From Flavobacteriales bacterium (lineage in GTDB: Bacteria > Bacteroidota > Bacteroidia > Flavobacteriales_D > Sanyastnellaceae), in contig JAIXWP010000093.1 in the NCBI GenBank assembly GCA_027491215.1, positions 1 through 50,046 on the forward strand: a DNA stretch of 50,046 nt, in the 5' to 3' direction. Position numbers and translations under genes: made by a program. How positions within the stretch are numbered: position 1 is the stretch's first letter; every line of letters starts with the position of its first letter. Positions 31,157 to 42,168 of the stretch are shown here, one piece after another. The notes under the pieces were generated by a model, which did no database searches, was not told the DNA's origin, and saw only the letters and a program-made list of their open reading frames with translations.

Positions 31157-31734
31157 TGGAAGGAAAATTAGTTTCAGCGAACATACCAACACAGGTCGGA
31201 AAATTCACGATGCATGCTTTTGACAGCGGCAGACCTGAACTCCCGCATCTGGCGCTGGTAGCTGAAAACACGAAGTTGGATGGAGTTGTGGATGTTAGAA
31301 TTCATTCTGAGTGTTTAACTGGAGATGTGTTCGGAAGTTTGCGATGTGATTGCGGAGAGCAATTACAAGCCGCAATGAAGCATGTAGAAGCTAACGGCGG
31401 CGTGATTATCTACCTACGTCAAGAAGGACGTGGTATTGGGCTTGTAAACAAGCTCAAGGCCTATAACCTCCAAGATGAAGGAATGGATACCGCAGAAGCC
31501 AACATCGCATTAGGCTTTCATGCTGACGAGCGCGACTTTACTCCAGCCATAGATATTCTTCATTTTTTTCAAATAAAAAAAGTAAGAATACTCACCAATA
31601 ATCCAGAAAAATTCGAGGCTTTGCAAACGAGCGGCATTGAGGTTGTTGAGCGCATTGCTCTCACCACACCAAAGCACGCGGAAAATCAATTCTATCTAGA
31701 AACAAAGCGTAAGGTCTTCCGACACGATGTGTAA
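31156..31734 (+). CDS. ribA: GTP cyclohydrolase II
   Basis: A 192-residue enzyme that opens GTP in the first step of riboflavin synthesis. Zinc ligands Cys53, Cys64 and Cys66 are in SECLTGDVFGSLRCDCGEQ, and the catalytic and Arg-finger region LRQEGRGIGL follows near residues 88-97. The length matches stand-alone RibA, without a fused RibB domain. It overlaps the upstream DUF4139 gene by one base. Its stop codon abuts the heptad-repeat element that fills the gap to the MFS gene. Confidence 0.95.
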   Translation: MEGKLVSANIPTQVGKFTMHAFDSGRPELPHLALVAENTKLDGVVDVRIHSECLTGDVFGSLRCDCGEQLQAAMKHVEANGGVIIYLRQEGRGIGLVNKLKAYNLQDEGMDTAEANIALGFHADERDFTPAIDILHFFQIKKVRILTNNPEKFEALQTSGIEVVERIALTTPKHAENQFYLETKRKVFRHDV

Positions 31735-31893
31735 ATGACAAATTACAAGTGACAAGGGACAAATGACAAGGGATCTCGGCTTTGCCGAGAACAAATGACA
31801 AGGGACAAATAAGTTGATGCTTTGCACAATAAAAAATCTCGCAGAATGCGAGATTTTTTATTATTTGTCATTTGTCACTTGTAATTTGTCATT
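31734..31893. repeat. Inverted heptad-repeat element with nested hairpins
   Basis: The whole ribA-MFS gap is built of 7-bp units. On the left (31734-31768) the plus strand reads AATGACA, AATTACA, AGTGACA, AGGGACA, AATGACA. On the right (31866-31893) the minus strand reads AATGACA, AATTACA, AGTGACA, AATGACA. The outer units give a perfect 22-bp inverted repeat (31734-31755 with 31872-31893). Inside lie a 7-bp hairpin (TCTCGGC-TTT-GCCGAGA, 31774-31790), a second short heptad run (31794-31807) and a terminator hairpin. As RNA it could form a three-way junction. There is no coding capacity. Confidence 0.85.
31831..31859. terminator. Bidirectional terminator between ribA and the MFS gene
   Basis: A perfect 12-base stem (AAAAAATCTCGC and GCGAGATTTTTT) around a five-base loop has A- and T-runs on the outer sides, so it can stop both convergent genes. 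It is nested inside the larger heptad inverted repeat. Confidence 0.88.
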
Positions 31894-33532: not shown

Positions 33533-36500
33533 TTACTTCGTAACCATCATACGCTCAGTGATCACTTCATTACCGAAGGTCATTTCTACCATGTAGAGAC
33601 CTGAAGTAAGTGGACGATCAAAAGCGATAACTGTGTTAAGAGCGCCTTCAACAACATAACGGTTAGTCCATACAACGCGACCAGTAGCATCCATGATGCG
33701 GATGTTCACGTTTTCTGAATCGATACCCGCAAGGTTCAAGTTCACCAACTCACCATTAGATGGGTTAGGATAGATCGCTGCGAATACACCGTTTTCAGTG
33801 TTGCGTTCCATGTACAATTCTGATGGAAGTGTTTCATCTTCAGCTACAACCATACCTGGTGCAACACCAGCGATACGTAGGTAGAAGAAGCTAGCATCAT
33901 CATATGTACCAGGACCTGAAGCGAATACTGGACGGATTCTTACACGGTAACGAGCGCCACCGAATACCCCTGGGATATTGCTTGTGCGGAAGAAACGTGA
34001 AGAAGTACCAGTGTTCACAACCTGAGCACCTAGAAGATCAGCTGGATCACCAGCATTGTCAACTAGTTCGAAGCTCCAATCCCATGATTGAACAGCACAT
34101 ACAGAGATATCAGTAGAAATGAATGCACCGATAGCACGAGTTACTGGATCACGGTCAGCAAATCTCAAGTTTACAGCTGGTTGTGCAGCGATAGTGATAG
34201 TGCAAGTTTCATTGCTGTTAGCAATTACTTGAACTGGAGCACCTGCAGCATCAACTAAGTTGAATACAGAGCTAACACCAACGTTGTAAGATTGACCATA
34301 CTGAAGACCAGCAACACTTGACAACAAGATCTGAGTGCTGTTAGTTGAGCTTGCAGTATAAGCTGTGCTTGTAGCTGTGTTTGTGAACACAAAATTGTAG
34401 CTGTTTGTACCAGTCCAGTCAGCCTTGAATGCTTGACACAATGAAGCGAAGCTAGGACCATTGTCACAACGTGAGTCGTTCAATGTTTGGATACATACGC
34501 TTGCAGTACCAGGAGTTCCGCTCATATCACGAACAGCAACCCAGTACTGTTGACCTGGAGTAAGACCGCCTGTGATGTAGATTTCAGAACCAGTATTAGA
34601 AGCATTAGCTGTTGAAGTAGCAGAAGCAGTTGGTACAGAAGCACCAGCTTGATCTTCAACTTCGATTTCAACGTTTTGTGTACCTGTTACAGCGATACGA
34701 ACAGCGTTAGAAGCTGCAGTGAAGCGGTACCATACGTCGTTACCAGAAGCTTCAGAAGGTGTAGCATTTGCAAGGTTTACGTTGAAGCTAGAGCAACCTG
34801 GGAATTGTGGAGGAGCAACTGCTGTAGCGTTAGCTTGAGCATCGTTTGCAACACCAGCAACCAGAGTTACAGTGTAGTCTTCTGTTTCACCACCACCTGT
34901 GCTGCTACAAGCATCAAACGTTGTGTTTGAATAAACCTCACGTACACGAAGTCTTGTAGTTCCTAATAAAGCATTAGCTGGTACAATGAAGTTAATTGTT
35001 GCTGTTCCAAAAGAACCAAGACTGTTTTGCTGTCCGATTTTTTCAGATGATTCGAATATACCATTACGGTTGTAGTCGATCCAAGCTGCAATATTATTCG
35101 CAGATGTCCAGCTACCTACTGTCAATGAAGCTGTGTATTCTCCGCCAGAAGCTAGAGTTGTAGTGAATCCTGGAGTAGGAGTATACAATGTATAATCAGT
35201 TGCATTCACACCTGAAGTGTTATTGATACCACCAAGAACAACTGCCTCAATATAATCACCTGCAGTATTACCTCCAGCGTTTGGAGTGCAATAACACTCT
35301 GTACCTGCTGACATACCTACTGTCTTAGGAGCTGAGATACCTAGGTATCCGCCTGGAAGAGAGCAAGTCACACGACAACGATAAGTAGTTGCTGCAGTTT
35401 GTGAACCAGTATAAGTAGAACCAGTAGCACCTGGGATATTCACCCAACCTGCACTAGTTACTCTCTGCCACTGATAAACATAACCTGTCAATGGAGTAGC
35501 AACACCAAGTGTGAAGTTTTGACCAGAACAAGCTGTTGCAGGACCGTTCAATACACCTACCGATGGAATACCAGTACAGTTTGGAGGAGTTGCTTTAATT
35601 GCGAATTCATCCAAGAAACAGTTGTCTCCATTACCAGAACGGAACAACAATGCAACATAAATAGTTGATTGGTTACCAGTTGCAGTAGGAAGCGTCATTT
35701 CTTTCTTCTTCCATTCAGCTGTACCTGATGCCAATGAGCCATCATGACGAGTAATAAATGGACCAGCATTAGTCCAAGTTGAACCGTTTGTTGACCACTG
35801 TACCTGAACACCTTCGTTCAAATATTGACCAGAGCTGTATGAAGCATTATTATTATTTCTCCACCAGAACTCAACATCGATAGATTGAGCGCCTACTGAA
35901 GTAACAGGAGCTGCAATCACGCGTGATTGGTTGCCATTAGCAGAGCTGAATGAGTTGAAATACAACATTTGGCTACCACCGAATGGTGTAGTAGTTGGGA
36001 ATGAACCTGTTGTAGCAAGGTTAATGGTAGTTGTACCAGTAACGTTTTGAATTGCCCAACAATCAGCAGTAGCAGCATCAAAGTTCTGAGTGTAAGTAAG
36101 AGGTGCAGAAGCACAACCAGTTGTAATCAAAAGTGGACCTGCCCATGTAGATTGGTCACCAGGGCCACAATTAGCACGTACATAAACGTGATAGTTTGTT
36201 TCTGGGTTAAGACCAGTGATTTGAGCGTTAGTATTTGTAGTAACGTTCGACATTGTTCCAGTACCTGCAGTGTAGCCTTGAGGACCGTACTCCAACTGCC
36301 AAGCTGTTTCAACACAACCAATGTTCCATGAGAATGAAGCGCTGTTGTTTGTAACACCAGTAGAAGCTAAAGATGATGGAGCTGGACAAGAAACTGCTTG
36401 AGAAATAGTGATCGTGTAATCTTCAATTTCACCATAAGCGTTGTTCGCACAAGGAGTAACAGCGTTACCATTTGTAGCAAACATTGCACGAACGCGCAGT

Positions 36501-39500
36501 CTGTGAGCACCAAGTGGAGGGTTACATGCAAGTGTGATTGGGAAAGTTGCAGAAGAACCTAGCACTCCTACCTGACCTGAACCTGTAACTAGACCTGCAG
36601 AGAATCCGATACGCTCTGAAGTAGAGAATACTCCGTCATCATTGTAGTCGATCCATGCTGCATAGCCTTCACTGTATTGACCAGCGAAAACTGTACAACC
36701 ATAAGTCTGACCAGCTTGAAGAACGGTAGTGTGAAGTGGGTTCGTGCTAGTAGTATAATCAGAATATCCAGGACCCTGAACGTTTGGTAATGTTGAAGAA
36801 TCTAACGGATCTGGGTCAGAAGGACAACCAGTACCAGAGTTGTTATCCAATGAGTTCAATGTTACGCGAGCAATTACGTCACCATCAGCACAACCGTAAG
36901 TTGTAACTGGCAAACAGTAGCATGAAAGTGGAGGATTCATTGTGATAGCTACTACGTTAGAAGTTGCAGTCAAGCCACTTGTTGAACAAGTTGTTACACG
37001 ACGGTAAGAGCTTGCTACCAATTGAGTTCCAGTGAAGTTAGCCGTAGTAACACCTGTTGATGCCCAACCAGAACCAGTATTTACTTCCCATAGGTAAGAA
37101 ATTCCGATATCTGAAGAACCACCTGTTACGTTGATTGTGAATGACACATCACCGCAAACAGAAGGAGTTGTTGTTGCAGCCGTTCCAGCAGCTGGAGTGC
37201 CAGAGCATGGAGCAATCAAGTTCCAAGCTAAGGTGTATGAACCAGCCCCTGAAGAGAAACCTTCTTGAATCCAATATACGTTTTGTGAAACACCTGTAGT
37301 GTTTGTCCAGTTAATGTTTTGTACGTCTGGATCATCAAAACAAGTAATTTGGGTTGTACCTGGACAAGTAGTTCCATAGTATACACTCACATATGAATCA
37401 TAGTCATTTGAGGTTTGACCAATAGTCAATCCATAACCAGCTGGTACTGTGATAAATGAAACCGCGTCAGCAGATGTATTTGTGTTACATCCAACAGTAA
37501 CATCATTCGATAAACCAGTTGTCGAAGCTGTCAGTGGACTTGTGCGCAATGAAAGATCATAAGCGTTAGAACAGTTGTCATTTCCAGAAAGCGTAGCAAC
37601 CGAAATTGGACCTACCCATGTAGATGTTCCGTTTGCAGCGCAATCAGCAGCTACATACACATCATAAGCAGTTGATTCAGTAAGACCTGAAAGAACAAAA
37701 CCAGTATTGGTGTTAGTTGACACAACAGTACCTGCTGAAGCAGGGTTGTAACCTACTGGACCATAGCTAACATTCCAAGCTGTTTCAACACAACCAATGT
37801 TCCAAGTGAATGGTACACTTGTAGCAGTAACAGTACCAGCAACTACGTTAGAGACAGCTGGACAAGGTACAGCAGTTGTTACATTTACCAAGTAGTCTTC
37901 TGTTTCACCCCAGCCGTACAAATTGCAAGGATCAAGGTTAGCAGTAGTTGGCTGACCGCCTGATTGCCATACGTCACGAACTCTCATTCTGTGTACACCA
38001 AGAGGAGGGTTACATGCCAATGAAATTGGGAATGTAGCAGCAGGGAATGGTCCAGCTAGACCTTGACCAGGAGCAACAATTGTAGATCCAATAACTTCAG
38101 AAGCTTCAAATAGTCCGTCATCATCATAGTCAATCCAAGCTTTAACCACCTGGCTTCCCCATACACCTACAGAAACGCTTACAGTGTAAGAACCACCCGC
38201 AGACATTTCGCCTGTGTAGTTTGGCTGACCTGTGAAGTATGTGTAAGCTGGGTTTGTTTGAGCAGTACCTGAGTTGTTTGCTAAGGCAGTACCAATGATA
38301 GCGATGTTAGAGATCAAGTCACCAGCGGTTTTACCAGTGGTGTATGTTGGAATACAATAACATTCAGTAGGAACATTCAATCCAACATAAACAAGAGAAG
38401 AGTTTGCAGACTGAGAAGAGAGTGTGCAAGTTGTTACTCGTCTGAAGTAAAGAGGTGAAGTGATAGAAGTAGACAACGATGCGTTAGTACCGGCAGTTGC
38501 TACGTTTGTCCATGGATCAACACCGTCTGGTGAAGTTTGCCATTGGTAAGTCAAACCAGCTGCAGATGTTGCACCTGATACGTTGATTGTAAATGATGCA
38601 CCAGAACATGCAAGCGGTACAGAAGATAGTGCAGTACCTCCAGACGGAGTACCAGCACAAGCAGGAACGATAGCAAGGTTATCAACCCCAATATCATCAT
38701 TACCAAAATCTGAAGTACCTCTCAATCGAATTACTGTTGTAGCCGAAGTAGAAGTAATGCTGAAAGTTCTTCTTGTCCAAGTAGTAGCAACACCAATGTT
38801 AGTTCCAACTTGTGTAAAGTTCAAACCACCGTCAGTAGAAACTAGTACTGCTAGAACATCCGTTCCAGAAGGGTTGATTTGGTCGAAACCAAGTTCAACT
38901 AGACCAGATGAAGCTGTAAGGTTGATATATAAATCCAAAGAACCTTGGGTACCGCCGGTAGCTTGATAAGCGTGGAATCTTGCAGAAAATGCTCCAGTTG
39001 AAAATGTTGGAGAATATGCTCCAAGAGTAGCATTACCCCATGCAGCCGAGCTTCCTTGATCATTTCTTCTCCAGCTTGTGTTACCAGTATTAGGAGTACC
39101 TCTCCACTCAGAAGCTGGAGCATCCGTAGTATTACAAATGCTTGACCAAGACTCAAAATCTTGGATATAGCTTGTACCGTTGAATACTGTGTATGAAGGC
39201 ACAGTTACTGACACCAAGAATTCAGTTGAGAAAGCATTCGTAGTGTTAGCAGCACAAATCGTTTCGCGCTGATAATAAGTATTTGCTGTTGGTGTTGCAG
39301 TATAAGTAGCTCCTGTAGCCGTTGGAATGAGCGTGAACGGTCCACCTGAAGTTGGTGAAGAGTACCACTGGTAAGTTAAACCAGCTGCACCGCTTGTTGA
39401 ACCAGTCACAGACAATGCTGACGTTGAACCTAAACAGATAGAAGCAGTTCCTGTTGTTGTTCCTCCAGCAAGAGTTATTGTTTGACACAATACTGGAGGT

Positions 39501-40321
39501 GTCCAAGTATATGTTAGTCCAGATGATGGCATACCAGGAGTCGCCAAACTAGTATTGAAAGCTTGTCTATTGCTATTCAAGGTACCAGCGGAACTTGAAG
39601 TAAATGCAACAGTCGCCAAGTTCGTTCTTGTTTGAAAAGCAGTGTTAGTTGCACCTCTAAGACCTACTGCAGGACCTGTAGTAGGGGAACCTGTTACAGC
39701 CGTTGATCCTACTGCGAAAGACAATGGACCACCGTATCTCATTACGATGACATTTGAAGTTTCCTGCAATCTGATCTGAAAACTAAAAGTGTAAACGTTG
39801 GTTGTAGACGTAGAGTACGCTGGTCTGAAATTCTTCCATTCAATAACCAACTCTCTGTTTGGAGCAGTTCCAACTAACTCCCAACCAATTGATCCAGTGC
39901 GCCCACCTGCGTTGAAGGGAGCATTGAGATCTCTTCCCCAAATAGCAATTGCACCAGCGTAAGCTTCAGTTCCACTAATTGATGTTTGATTCGTTGTTGT
40001 TGGAGCTGTAGCACCAAAAGTAATAAAACCATTGGTGGAAACATTACAAGCAGTGTAAGCCGTACCATTGAAGTTGAAGCTAAAACCACCCGAGAATGTA
40101 ACAGGATAAATCACATCGTCCAAGGATCCAGCACCAGCTCCACTGGTGGTTGCAGTAGCTAGAACTGTAGGAGTAGCTAGGTCAGTGTAAGTCCCAGATG
40201 ACTGGGCAAACGAATATGCACTAATTTGTGCAAATGCGCCCTGCGAGAACAAAAATGCTACTAAGAGTAGCGCATAATACTTGGGCCAACTCGTTCGACC
40301 CGATGAGTATTTGTTGCTCAT
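33533..40321 (-). CDS. Giant modular surface protein (Ig-like, GEVED, Fn3 and MAM/lectin-like domains, T9SS)
   Basis: A 2262-residue exported protein, the largest gene in the window. After a signal peptide (residues ~10-31, ending QGAFAQ) there is an N-terminal beta domain (~35-280). Three modules follow, built from an Ig-like segment with CYC-x-P at its end (about residues 654, 1135 and 1678) and a GEVED domain ending in GETEDYLVNV, GEIEDYTITI and GETEDYTVTL (about 812, 1302 and 1815). Two Fn3 domains share WNIGCVETAW (about 815-910 and 1305-1400). MAM/lectin-like domains lie near 385-560 and 1400-1560. The C-terminus has AIYPNPSNGELV and a GRVVW turn (from ~2180), a type A sorting domain. 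It is probably an adhesin. Confidence 0.9.
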   Translation of the reverse strand: MSNKYSSGRTSWPKYYALLLVAFLFSQGAFAQISAYSFAQSSGTYTDLATPTVLATATTSGAGAGSLDDVIYPVTFSGGFSFNFNGTAYTACNVSTNGFITFGATAPTTTNQTSISGTEAYAGAIAIWGRDLNAPFNAGGRTGSIGWELVGTAPNRELVIEWKNFRPAYSTSTTNVYTFSFQIRLQETSNVIVMRYGGPLSFAVGSTAVTGSPTTGPAVGLRGATNTAFQTRTNLATVAFTSSSAGTLNSNRQAFNTSLATPGMPSSGLTYTWTPPVLCQTITLAGGTTTGTASICLGSTSALSVTGSTSGAAGLTYQWYSSPTSGGPFTLIPTATGATYTATPTANTYYQRETICAANTTNAFSTEFLVSVTVPSYTVFNGTSYIQDFESWSSICNTTDAPASEWRGTPNTGNTSWRRNDQGSSAAWGNATLGAYSPTFSTGAFSARFHAYQATGGTQGSLDLYINLTASSGLVELGFDQINPSGTDVLAVLVSTDGGLNFTQVGTNIGVATTWTRRTFSITSTSATTVIRLRGTSDFGNDDIGVDNLAIVPACAGTPSGGTALSSVPLACSGASFTINVSGATSAAGLTYQWQTSPDGVDPWTNVATAGTNASLSTSITSPLYFRRVTTCTLSSQSANSSLVYVGLNVPTECYCIPTYTTGKTAGDLISNIAIIGTALANNSGTAQTNPAYTYFTGQPNYTGEMSAGGSYTVSVSVGVWGSQVVKAWIDYDDDGLFEASEVIGSTIVAPGQGLAGPFPAATFPISLACNPPLGVHRMRVRDVWQSGGQPTTANLDPCNLYGWGETEDYLVNVTTAVPCPAVSNVVAGTVTATSVPFTWNIGCVETAWNVSYGPVGYNPASAGTVVSTNTNTGFVLSGLTESTAYDVYVAADCAANGTSTWVGPISVATLSGNDNCSNAYDLSLRTSPLTASTTGLSNDVTVGCNTNTSADAVSFITVPAGYGLTIGQTSNDYDSYVSVYYGTTCPGTTQITCFDDPDVQNINWTNTTGVSQNVYWIQEGFSSGAGSYTLAWNLIAPCSGTPAAGTAATTTPSVCGDVSFTINVTGGSSDIGISYLWEVNTGSGWASTGVTTANFTGTQLVASSYRRVTTCSTSGLTATSNVVAITMNPPLSCYCLPVTTYGCADGDVIARVTLNSLDNNSGTGCPSDPDPLDSSTLPNVQGPGYSDYTTSTNPLHTTVLQAGQTYGCTVFAGQYSEGYAAWIDYNDDGVFSTSERIGFSAGLVTGSGQVGVLGSSATFPITLACNPPLGAHRLRVRAMFATNGNAVTPCANNAYGEIEDYTITISQAVSCPAPSSLASTGVTNNSASFSWNIGCVETAWQLEYGPQGYTAGTGTMSNVTTNTNAQITGLNPETNYHVYVRANCGPGDQSTWAGPLLITTGCASAPLTYTQNFDAATADCWAIQNVTGTTTINLATTGSFPTTTPFGGSQMLYFNSFSSANGNQSRVIAAPVTSVGAQSIDVEFWWRNNNNASYSSGQYLNEGVQVQWSTNGSTWTNAGPFITRHDGSLASGTAEWKKKEMTLPTATGNQSTIYVALLFRSGNGDNCFLDEFAIKATPPNCTGIPSVGVLNGPATACSGQNFTLGVATPLTGYVYQWQRVTSAGWVNIPGATGSTYTGSQTAATTYRCRVTCSLPGGYLGISAPKTVGMSAGTECYCTPNAGGNTAGDYIEAVVLGGINNTSGVNATDYTLYTPTPGFTTTLASGGEYTASLTVGSWTSANNIAAWIDYNRNGIFESSEKIGQQNSLGSFGTATINFIVPANALLGTTRLRVREVYSNTTFDACSSTGGGETEDYTVTLVAGVANDAQANATAVAPPQFPGCSSFNVNLANATPSEASGNDVWYRFTAASNAVRIAVTGTQNVEIEVEDQAGASVPTASATSTANASNTGSEIYITGGLTPGQQYWVAVRDMSGTPGTASVCIQTLNDSRCDNGPSFASLCQAFKADWTGTNSYNFVFTNTATSTAYTASSTNSTQILLSSVAGLQYGQSYNVGVSSVFNLVDAAGAPVQVIANSNETCTITIAAQPAVNLRFADRDPVTRAIGAFISTDISVCAVQSWDWSFELVDNAGDPADLLGAQVVNTGTSSRFFRTSNIPGVFGGARYRVRIRPVFASGPGTYDDASFFYLRIAGVAPGMVVAEDETLPSELYMERNTENGVFAAIYPNPSNGELVNLNLAGIDSENVNIRIMDATGRVVWTNRYVVEGALNTVIAFDRPLTSGLYMVEMTFGNEVITERMMVTK

Positions 40322-40464: not shown

Positions 40465-40538
40465 ATTCTCAATTCTCGATTCTCGATTCTCAATAAAACT
40501 GGTTCCTGAGCTTGTCGAAAGACAATTCTCGATTCTTG
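40465..40538. repeat. Left heptad array (ATTCTCR units)
   Basis: Four contiguous units, ATTCTCA, ATTCTCG, ATTCTCG, ATTCTCA, occupy 40465-40492. After a 32-bp interruption two more follow at 40525-40538 (ATTCTCG, ATTCTTG). They are the reverse complement of the array downstream of the four-helix-bundle gene. 40472-40491 is a perfect inverted match to 41075-41094 (20 bp). Confidence 0.85.
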
Positions 40539-40638
40539 AAATTGGGCGGATGAATTGGTAGTTATGTGTTGTTACAACATTGAATATTCCTGTTAAACAT
40601 AATTTCCCATTTTCAAACTTCATGCTGATTTTTGCAAC

Positions 40639-41019
40639 ATGAAAAACTATAAAGACTCAGAAATTTGGAAGTGTTCCATTGAACTCTATAAAGAAATTGT
40701 GCCTTTATTATCAACTCTTCAAGAAAAAAAGCTATTTCGGCTGAGGGATCAACTCGAAGCCTCTGCTGGAAGTATTTCTGACAACATAGCCGAGGGCTTT
40801 GGAAGAATGGGTAATAAGGAAGTCATTCAATTTTTAACCATTTCAAACGGCTCGTGCTATGAATGTGAAAATCAAATAACCCGAGCCCACTTCACCGGAA
40901 GTATCGATGAATTCACTTACAAAAAGTTGGTCGAAATGTGCAACACAATATCTCGACAGATTATCGGATTAATCAAATACCTCAAAGACAATGAATTCAA
41001 GGGTACAAAATTCAAGTAG
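40639..41019 (+). CDS. Four-helix-bundle protein (S23/Avd-like)
   Basis: A 126-residue, almost entirely helical protein of the family that includes 23S rRNA intervening-sequence proteins (S23) and the Avd accessory proteins of diversity-generating retroelements. The core signature runs from about 38 to 76: QLEASAGSISDNIAEGFGR, then EVIQFLTISNGSCYECENQI. Known relatives form barrel-like pentamers that bind nucleic acid. No reverse transcriptase, variable or template repeat, or rRNA gene is near, so it is a solitary copy. It is bracketed by inverted heptad arrays: left at 40465-40538, right at 41032-41094, only 13 bp after its stop. Its role is unknown. Confidence 0.88.
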   Translation: MKNYKDSEIWKCSIELYKEIVPLLSTLQEKKLFRLRDQLEASAGSISDNIAEGFGRMGNKEVIQFLTISNGSCYECENQITRAHFTGSIDEFTYKKLVEMCNTISRQIIGLIKYLKDNEFKGTKFK

Positions 41020-41031
41020 TCCACCCAACAT

Positions 41032-41103
41032 TGAGAATTGAGAATTGAGAATCAAGAATCCTGAATTTCGAATCGAGAATCGAGAATCGAGAATCTCGAT
41101 TCG
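41032..41103. repeat. Right heptad array (YGAGAAT units) with terminal palindrome
   Basis: Nine contiguous in-phase units run from 41032 to 41094: three TGAGAAT, then CAAGAAT, CCTGAAT, TTCGAAT, then three CGAGAAT. The array ends in CTCGATTCG (41095-41103), which is the reverse complement of CGAATCGAG at 41069-41077 and so closes a hairpin. The array abuts the stop codon of fbaA on the other strand and may end its transcript, but there is no T-run. Confidence 0.85.
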
Positions 41104-42168
41104 TTACGCGTTTCTGCCGATGGCGTTTAGGTCTTCGAAGGCTTGGCGGAGGCGAGTAACGAATGTCTTCTCCCCTTCTCTTAGCCACACGCGTGGATCG
41201 TAATATTTCTTATTTGGCTTATCTGAACCTTCTGGATTTCCAATCTGTGCTTGGAGGTAGCCCGACTTATCAGCCATATAATTTCTTATTCCTTCCATAT
41301 ATGCATATTGCATATCGGTATCGATGTTCATTTTGATTGCTCCGTAGCTGATTGCTTCACGAATTTCTTCTTGTGTGCTTCCGCTTCCACCGTGGAATAC
41401 GAAGTGAATTGGTTTATCACCAGTATTAAATTTCTTCTGAACGTATTCTTGAGAATTTTTTAAAATAACTGGCTCTAATTTCACATTACCTGGCTTGTAA
41501 ACACCATGCACATTTCCGAATGCTGCTGCAACCGTAAATTTCGAATCTACTTTCATCAAATGCTCATAGCTGTAGGCAACATCTTCTGGCTGAGTGTATA
41601 GCTTGCTGCTGTCCACTCCTGAATTATCCACGCCGTCTTCTTCTCCACCTGTCACTCCTAATTCAATTTCAAGGGTGATTCCCATCTTTGACATGCGCTC
41701 TAAATATTTTACACAAAGTTCAATATTTTCATGCAATGGTTCTTCGCTGAAGTCGAGCATATGTGAAGAGAACAATGACTTGCCTGTTCTTTCGAAATGA
41801 CGCTCACCATGTTCTAGCATTCCATCCATCCATGGCAACAAATTTTTTGCGCAATGGTCAGTATGAATGATGACGGGAATATTGTAGGCTTCAGCCATCA
41901 TGTGTATATGCTGAGCTCCGCTTACAGAGCCTAACACAGAAGCTTGCTGCGCATCGTTTTTCAATCCTTTACCAGCATAAAAAGCACCACCACCATTACT
42001 GAACTGAATGATCACTGGAGAGTTGACATCACGCGCAGTTTCTAATACAGCGTTGACACTATTTGTCCCAATGACATTTACCGCAGGAAGAGCATATCCT
42101 CTTTCCTTTGCATCATTCAATAATTCGGTTACTTCTGCACCTGTTAAAACTCCTGGACGAAAACGCAT
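41104..42168 (-). CDS. fbaA: Fructose-bisphosphate aldolase, class II
   Basis: A 354-residue class IIA zinc aldolase. IIHTDHCAKN holds the catalytic Asp104 and zinc ligand His105. SPVIIQFSNGGGAFYAGKG (50-68) is the family N-terminal motif, and FVFHGGSGSTQEEI-type phosphate-binding sequence lies in the second half. It splits or makes fructose-1,6-bisphosphate in glycolysis and gluconeogenesis. The length is normal. The gene is framed by heptad repeats on both sides: the clean array at its 3' end and a degenerate one (42185-42233) just upstream of its start. Confidence 0.96.
   Translation of the reverse strand: MRFRPGVLTGAEVTELLNDAKERGYALPAVNVIGTNSVNAVLETARDVNSPVIIQFSNGGGAFYAGKGLKNDAQQASVLGSVSGAQHIHMMAEAYNIPVIIHTDHCAKNLLPWMDGMLEHGERHFERTGKSLFSSHMLDFSEEPLHENIELCVKYLERMSKMGITLEIELGVTGGEEDGVDNSGVDSSKLYTQPEDVAYSYEHLMKVDSKFTVAAAFGNVHGVYKPGNVKLEPVILKNSQEYVQKKFNTGDKPIHFVFHGGSGSTQEEIREAISYGAIKMNIDTDMQYAYMEGIRNYMADKSGYLQAQIGNPEGSDKPNKKYYDPRVWLREGEKTFVTRLRQAFEDLNAIGRNA

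Follow-up and report, generated by a model that had tools for sequence, protein, structure and literature searches.

S23 genes between inverted arrays of short tandem repeats in Flavobacteriales and beyond: a putative self-spreading unit with genome-specific dispersed repeats

The S23 locus of the window

The window analyzed here, a stretch of 50,046 nucleotides, is an entire contig (JAIXWP010000093.1) of a 3.17-Mb Flavobacteriales genome (GCA_027491215.1, here G000). At 40639–41019 on the forward strand it carries a gene of the S23 (23S_rRNA_IVP) family encoding 126 amino acids with a pI of about 8.3. The first-pass annotation had called it a four-helix-bundle, S23/Avd-like gene, and profile searches agree (PF05635, 101 bits, cut-off 33.8; TIGR02436 ‘four helix bundle protein’, 99 bits, cut-off 24). 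The protein also matches PDB entry 2gsc by sequence (E 6e-8), which corresponds to the Xanthomonas S23 gene XCC0516, and Lishizhenia carries a closely related gene. A single-sequence structure model was weak (pLDDT 62), with the S23 structures 2gsc and 2rld as best Foldseek matches at E values of at least 0.37. A solved Xanthomonas S23 relative is described as a ring-shaped pentamer, and S23 proteins as lacking a known function, in the available part of a paper on Coxiella (PMC4990558).

The gene lies between two heptad arrays in inverted orientation. On the 5′ side TRF reports about 4.3 copies of ATTCTCR (period 7) at 40465–40494 on the forward strand; a REP-like stretch, GTTCCTGAGCTTGTCGAAAGAC, follows at 40502–40523 (+), and two further ATTCTYG units (ATTCTCG ATTCTTG) at 40525–40538 (+) bring the left side, spanning 40465–40538, to about six heptads. 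The right array, YGAGAAT repeated nine times, occupies 41030–41095 on the same strand (41033–41095 by TRF, period 7, 9.0 copies, 82% matches). The six left and nine right units noted in the first-pass annotation were both recovered, as was its perfect 20-bp inverted repeat, 41075–41094 being the exact reverse complement of 40472–40491. Triple heptads with at most two mismatches occur six times in the window, all at the S23 unit, vs 0.00 expected from 100 shuffles. From the RNA fold of the unit (z = −5.5, 20 shuffles) and the exact inverted repeat, the terminal repeats are predicted to form a stem around the S23 ORF. REP-like stretches similar to that in the left arm adjoin some other GAGAATY arrays of this genome, those of the CCTGAGCTTGTCGAAGG type being found beside heptad arrays at 40502–40523 of the window and at loci L300, L306 and L308; the intergenic regions are therefore mosaics of several repeat kinds.

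The neighbors of the unit are protein ORFs. On the left, a 2262-aa ORF on the reverse strand (33533–40321) has its start facing the unit, and on the right a reverse-strand gene (41104–42168), which we take, without an annotation, to be of fba type, has a stop codon starting 9 nt past the right array. The claim that no rRNA is near agrees with the lack of any Rfam family match in 30000–50046, and the claim that no reverse transcriptase is near extends to the whole genome, where RVT_1 found no match. The ORF list of the unit contains no transposase ORF and no recombinase. A whole-genome profile search, which among transposases covered only the Y1 (HuH) family PF01797, gave 0 matches, and identity with a RAYT was rejected on this ground. 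A reverse transcriptase acting in trans was rejected for G000 from the lack of RVT_1; the S23-rich genome G048 is also outside the 23 of 114 genomes with such a match.

The S23 gene had been described as lone, which does not hold for the genome, since it contains seven PF05635 matches. Five of the other six loci have tandem arrays, with units TAGTTAC (L002), GGGGATT (L003) and GACAAAT (L005–L007, only one side of L007 being seen because the contig end cuts it), and L004 has longer inverted repeats in place of tandem arrays. Heptad arrays also occur without S23. The window holds four of the non-coding period-7 arrays counted below, and at 31733–31893 (no strand assigned; TRF and sequence) an inverted pair of another family (AAATGAC ... 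ATTTGTC) surrounds a terminator-like hairpin, the inner hairpin of which, GATCTCGGCTTTGCCGAGAAC (31772–31792), is also found in the arms of S23 unit L006. This S23-less pair is likely a non-autonomous relative.

Inverted flanks at S23 genes and at a second gene family

PF05635 was present in 39 of the 114 genomes of the window’s family, and S23 or ‘four helix bundle’ proteins in 157 of 198 genomes of its phylum; among phages, 50,697 records gave one partial match. The family listing comprised 131 PF05635 rows, of which 12 weak, partial or end-of-contig rows were left out; 117 loci covering 119 rows (two loci hold two rows each) were taken together with L011, giving 118. Flanks were scored for the 107 loci that had 150 bp or more on each side; the other 11 were dropped. 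For each locus, the 450 bp on the left were compared with the reverse-complemented 450 bp on the right, and the best ungapped match gave the score (threshold, at least 14). Control genes were 441 ORFs of at least 100 aa taken from 667 kb of genomes G046 and G000.

The first-pass annotation had reasoned that a link between gene and repeats would appear as an enrichment of arrays beside S23 genes. Such enrichment was found, with matching inverted flanks at 92 of 107 S23 loci vs 7 of 441 control genes; arms were absent from the other 15. After dereplication below 60% S23 identity, 53 of 66 loci had inverted flanks. At the same threshold, direct-orientation flanks were found at 36/107 S23 loci vs 9/441 controls, and both-sided arrays of one period (score at least 10) at 64/107 vs 15/441. 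The repeat unit varies between loci (periods 6–14, mostly 7), while left matches right within a locus. Where the joint array score was at least 8, the two sides agreed best at a period of 7 in 32 loci, 14 in 16, 8 in ten, 6 in six, and 10, 12 and 13 in three each. Of 53 dereplicated loci (two ties excluded), 46 had arms whose inward-reading strand was G-rich (p 4e-8), the window’s own arms being exceptions.

Two further ideas about the arms were not upheld. Stop codons in all three frames, considered as an explanation for period 7, were present in 42 of 110 dereplicated arms read inward, vs 20 read outward and 27 shuffled; this excess is only modest, and periods 6 and 12 also exist. Concerted evolution of the two arms left no signal when complementarity within and between loci was compared (24 up, 21 down, 49 pairs).

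Elsewhere in the phylum, inverted flanks were found at 17 of 30 loci (one per genome, among the genomes listed). Plasmid S23 loci, sampled among the records listed, had them in 14 of 18 cases, made up of 12 of 16 cyanobacterial loci, one from Riemerella and one from Gemmatimonadota; at plasmid loci L320 and L328 the direct match was stronger than the inverted one. Some cyanobacterial S23 units lie inside CRISPR-Cas clusters, L320 and L322 between cas6 and cas4 and L321 between cas10 and a Cmr3-family gene. Two Nostoc plasmid four-helix genes (L323, L324), with inverted flanks of period 8–9, are situated just upstream of a tyrosine recombinase gene.

Substitution rates place S23 under purifying selection: dS was unsaturated in 14 of 18 pairs, which gave dN/dS of 0.00–0.34, and saturated in the remaining four, where pN/pS was 0.07–0.22.

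The same layout was observed around a second family. At L230 in G029, a frame-broken PD-(D/E)XK ‘GxxExxY’ gene (PF13366; 835–1488) lies between inverted octads at sdhA|sdhB, a site that S23 units occupy in related genomes (the names sdh, suf and fba rest on our reading of the gene products, not on annotation). GxxExxY genes at L230, L334, L335 and L337 are flanked by inverted arrays of octads or nonads (GCAGAGGC type), L334 and L335 being located between co-directional genes; L337 has both orientations on one side and an equally high direct score. Three of five plasmid relatives scored at least 14, and overall four of the six GxxExxY loci examined had the S23-like layout, one of the four being ambiguous. 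No GxxExxY gene was found in viral contigs, and 2,250 kb of sequence yielded no further match. Since this family shares the layout, S23 may not be the sole cause; identical ends around an unrelated small gene widen the class and weaken an S23-only cause.

Dispersed arrays, insertion sites and unit inheritance

Across 717 kb, window included, 113 period-7 arrays were identified, nine inside ORFs and 104 non-coding. In seven S23-positive genomes, 70 of 84 dispersed arrays (periods 6–14) matched an S23 flank of their own genome (G046 43/48, G000 15/17, G048 7/8, G047 2/5, G011 2/2, G016 1/1, G013 0/3), vs 0–9% on average for a given genome of another genus. When compared with genomes of other genera that have five or more S23 loci, 0–6 of the 48 G046 arrays and 0–10 of the 17 G000 arrays matched; ten of these 17 also match an S23 flank of G035, where L099 has a similar heptad. 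Unit sequences are not unique to one lineage. The triplet of the window heptad had 42 matches in G000, one each in G002, G033 and G038 and none in 110 others, vs 0 in G000 and one in G043 for its reversed control. The CGTGGTT triplet, carried by S23 units L078/L086 of G046/G048, was found 133 times in G046, 50 times in G048, once in the congener G047 and not in 111 others. The dispersed families are genome-specific. Of the G000 sites inspected, L291 consists of an inverted pair alone, and L298 contains one as well. At L298 and L317 (contigs C93 and C60), as judged by eye, GAGAATY heptads are placed in an apparent coding stretch with other heptad-like sequence.

Ten S23-negative genomes contained no period-7 array in 359 kb sampled, and three arrays of period 12 or 13. 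In 346 kb of ten further S23-positive genomes there were ten period-7 arrays, eight of them in G048; seven of these genomes had none in the 19–40 kb sampled, and dispersal is therefore not universal.

Many S23 sites are shared within a genus, and array ends frequently fall on stop codons. Five of eight congeners in genus g12 have an empty sdhA|sdhB gap (56–93 nt in G033, G034, G036, G037 and G039); in G035 and G038 the gap contains an octad S23 unit, and in G040 a heptad unit with a distant S23 (no BLASTP match at 1e-10). The stop codon TAG begins the array in both G035 and G040. A target-site duplication was looked for here and none could be defined, because the native spacer is unrecognizable in the occupied genomes. 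At the L073 site of G048, the corresponding region of G046 (flanks 89–94% identical) has only GCGGATT and CTAACGC arrays, of other families; for L065 a single flank was found in G046. Among genes of suf type, units occupy two neighboring gaps (L011, L016; L063, L066), and beside the fba-type gene in G001 and G002 there are arrays of other units with no S23 seen (the G001 contig ends there). Empty and differently occupied sites exist, and the relatives without S23 at sdhA|sdhB and at the L073 site are what the first-pass annotation had expected of a mobile unit.

The relation between unit and S23 lineage was assessed in 94 loci with arms, pairs being counted as different-site when flank homology of 80 bits was lacking. 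Where S23 was at least 75% identical, the unit was common to 10 of 11 different-site pairs, all in the same orientation and none reversed, vs 2 of 21 pairs at 60–75% identity (four more reversed) and 21 of 4,273 below 60%. The clearest cases are L037/L097/L100, which share TGGCGAG across three genomes, and L074/L075 and L005/L006 (same genome). For four of the eleven (the L033/L034/L035/L082/L083 group), homologous flanks may have gone undetected, in which case these pairs represent one region. For shared-site pairs with S23 at least 75% identical, the unit was common to 23 of 34 and differed in 11, and therefore drifts in place. By these pairwise sequence comparisons, the repeat unit co-travels with the S23 lineage.

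Origin of the units and relation to known systems

We consider it probable, without being assured of it, that the S23 gene and its two inverted arrays constitute one self-spreading, foldback-like unit of about 640 bp, and that S23-less arrays of the same heptad depend on it as non-autonomous relatives, in the way that REPINs depend on RAYTs; binding and spreading of the repeats by S23 are inferred. The observations are consistent with a unit that moves as a whole, leaving partial copies behind. The first-pass proposal of a REP/RAYT-type pairing in a small mobile or repeat-maintaining unit gains support from dispersed arrays that match S23 flanks of their own genome, with protein binding and causation of the spread not shown. 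S23 may recognize the folded array, as hairpin DNA or RNA, and could promote its copying or capture at new places, cutting and joining presumably being performed by host enzymes. Such units would be tolerated on account of their position between genes, where many begin at a stop codon, and possibly also through RNase III cutting of the long RNA stem; the analogy with 23S rRNA intervening sequences suggests that the stem is also what renders the unit harmless in RNA. S23 is very common without a known function, and heptads were described in several phyla with no maker named; assigning each repeat family to the S23 gene of its own genome provides a testable role for both. The pairing points to an unrecognized, transposase-free kind of self-spreading DNA, and to a likely origin of the long-known, unexplained heptads.

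Arrays could also be made by host processes such as replication slippage and template switching, with S23 genes as passengers settling in or between them. The S23-less arrays (104 non-coding in 717 kb, four in the window), the GxxExxY genes with the same layout and the array-occupied hot spots in relatives would all be accommodated; we nevertheless find this origin unlikely, given that the unit tracks the S23 lineage, that dispersed families match S23 flanks of their own genome, and that the ten S23-negative genomes have no period-7 arrays in the parts sampled. An RNA-level device, in which the S23 message is enclosed in a dsRNA stem made by the arms and trimmed by RNase III, and S23 binds the stem and controls its own and neighboring mRNAs, would make the spread incidental and leaves the genome-wide dispersed copies unexplained. 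The orientation of S23 relative to co-directional neighbors is unbiased (15 vs 22), and 30 of the 80 units with both neighbors seen lie between convergent genes. Such a device appears improbable to us, in spite of the strong predicted fold, the units between co-directional genes (e.g., sdhA|sdhB, cas6|cas4) and the RNase III excision of S23-bearing 23S rRNA intervening sequences, that of Coxiella having GACAGAT heptads upstream of the S23 start (PMC4990558, available in part).

The stop codons at array ends, the 35 gene 3′ ends vs 4 gene 5′ ends within 10 nt of the 104 arrays (one array may count twice), the sites common within a genus and the drift of units at shared sites might instead reflect a domesticated gene-end structure, a terminator or insulator under selection that is inherited vertically with turnover of its unit. 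Empty sites, distant S23 units at one site and the same unit at different sites count against this, and we give it very little credence. Some contigs end in or near repeats, but chance or assembly artefact is ruled out for practical purposes by the shuffles, in which 0 are expected, and by recurrence of the pattern in the single-contig genome G046 and in complete plasmids.

The self-spreading, foldback-like unit may be one case of something broader, although we advance this only tentatively and would not be surprised to see it fail. It would be a separate class of minimal mobile elements, bounded by inverted arrays in which a short unit of roughly constant period and freely changing sequence is repeated in tandem, and with one gene (S23 or GxxExxY PD-(D/E)XK) that spreads arrays of its own unit without transposase or reverse transcriptase. 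The heptads of Cyanobacteria, Xanthomonas and Beggiatoaceae would be footprints of such elements, and rRNA intervening sequences would be those members that had inserted into rRNA.

The Foldback (FB) elements of Drosophila likewise have long inverted ends composed of short tandem repeats; those elements are eukaryotic and have other proteins. Avd of diversity-generating retroelements is a small four-helix-bundle protein with a fold relation to S23; unlike Avd, the S23 of G000 has no reverse transcriptase match in its genome. The one Avd-position gene examined, bbp7 of BPP-1 beside its template repeat, has no inverted arrays (score 11, like controls). Heptameric simple repeats in Xanthomonas and Nostoc are reported as intergenic and G-rich, adjoining or overlapping stop codons, and in Xanthomonas also as inverted (convergent) pairs (Rehm, 2015, PMC4692102), and intergenic TAACTGA heptads are known from Beggiatoaceae, Cyanobacteria and Bacteroidetes, with S1, Csp or Csr proteins suggested as binders (MacGregor, 2015, PMC4679880), both papers being cited from partial text. 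The word ‘S23’ is absent from both main texts, and no S23-like partner of the heptads is named in the portions available. Among the matches listed in the open-licence PMC literature, no title or opening of an abstract links S23 genes with dispersed heptad arrays, an absence that is not proof.

The Coxiella 23S rRNA intervening sequence has an S23 ORF between terminal inverted repeats forming a long stem, and S23-bearing rRNA intervening sequences are sporadically distributed, have been termed selfish or parasitic and are suspected of mobility (PMC4990558, available portion). The present units resemble them in the S23 ORF within an inverted-repeat stem, and Coxiella too has heptads (GACAGAT), upstream of the ORF. 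They differ in being located outside rRNA, in gaps between protein genes, and in having unit-specific arrays on both sides together with dispersed S23-less families; S23 here is under purifying selection, whereas the Coxiella authors, in the text available, see S23p decaying. As in the RAYT/REPIN system (Bertels and Rainey, 2011, PMC3116915, available in part), a single-gene master is found beside its own repeat without a full transposon, and genome-specific dispersed inverted pairs form hairpins. Unlike REPINs, the repeats here are short tandem arrays and not single palindromes, and the protein is an unrelated four-helix bundle, which would extend the small set of proteins tied to dispersed repeats by one that has no relation to HuH transposases.
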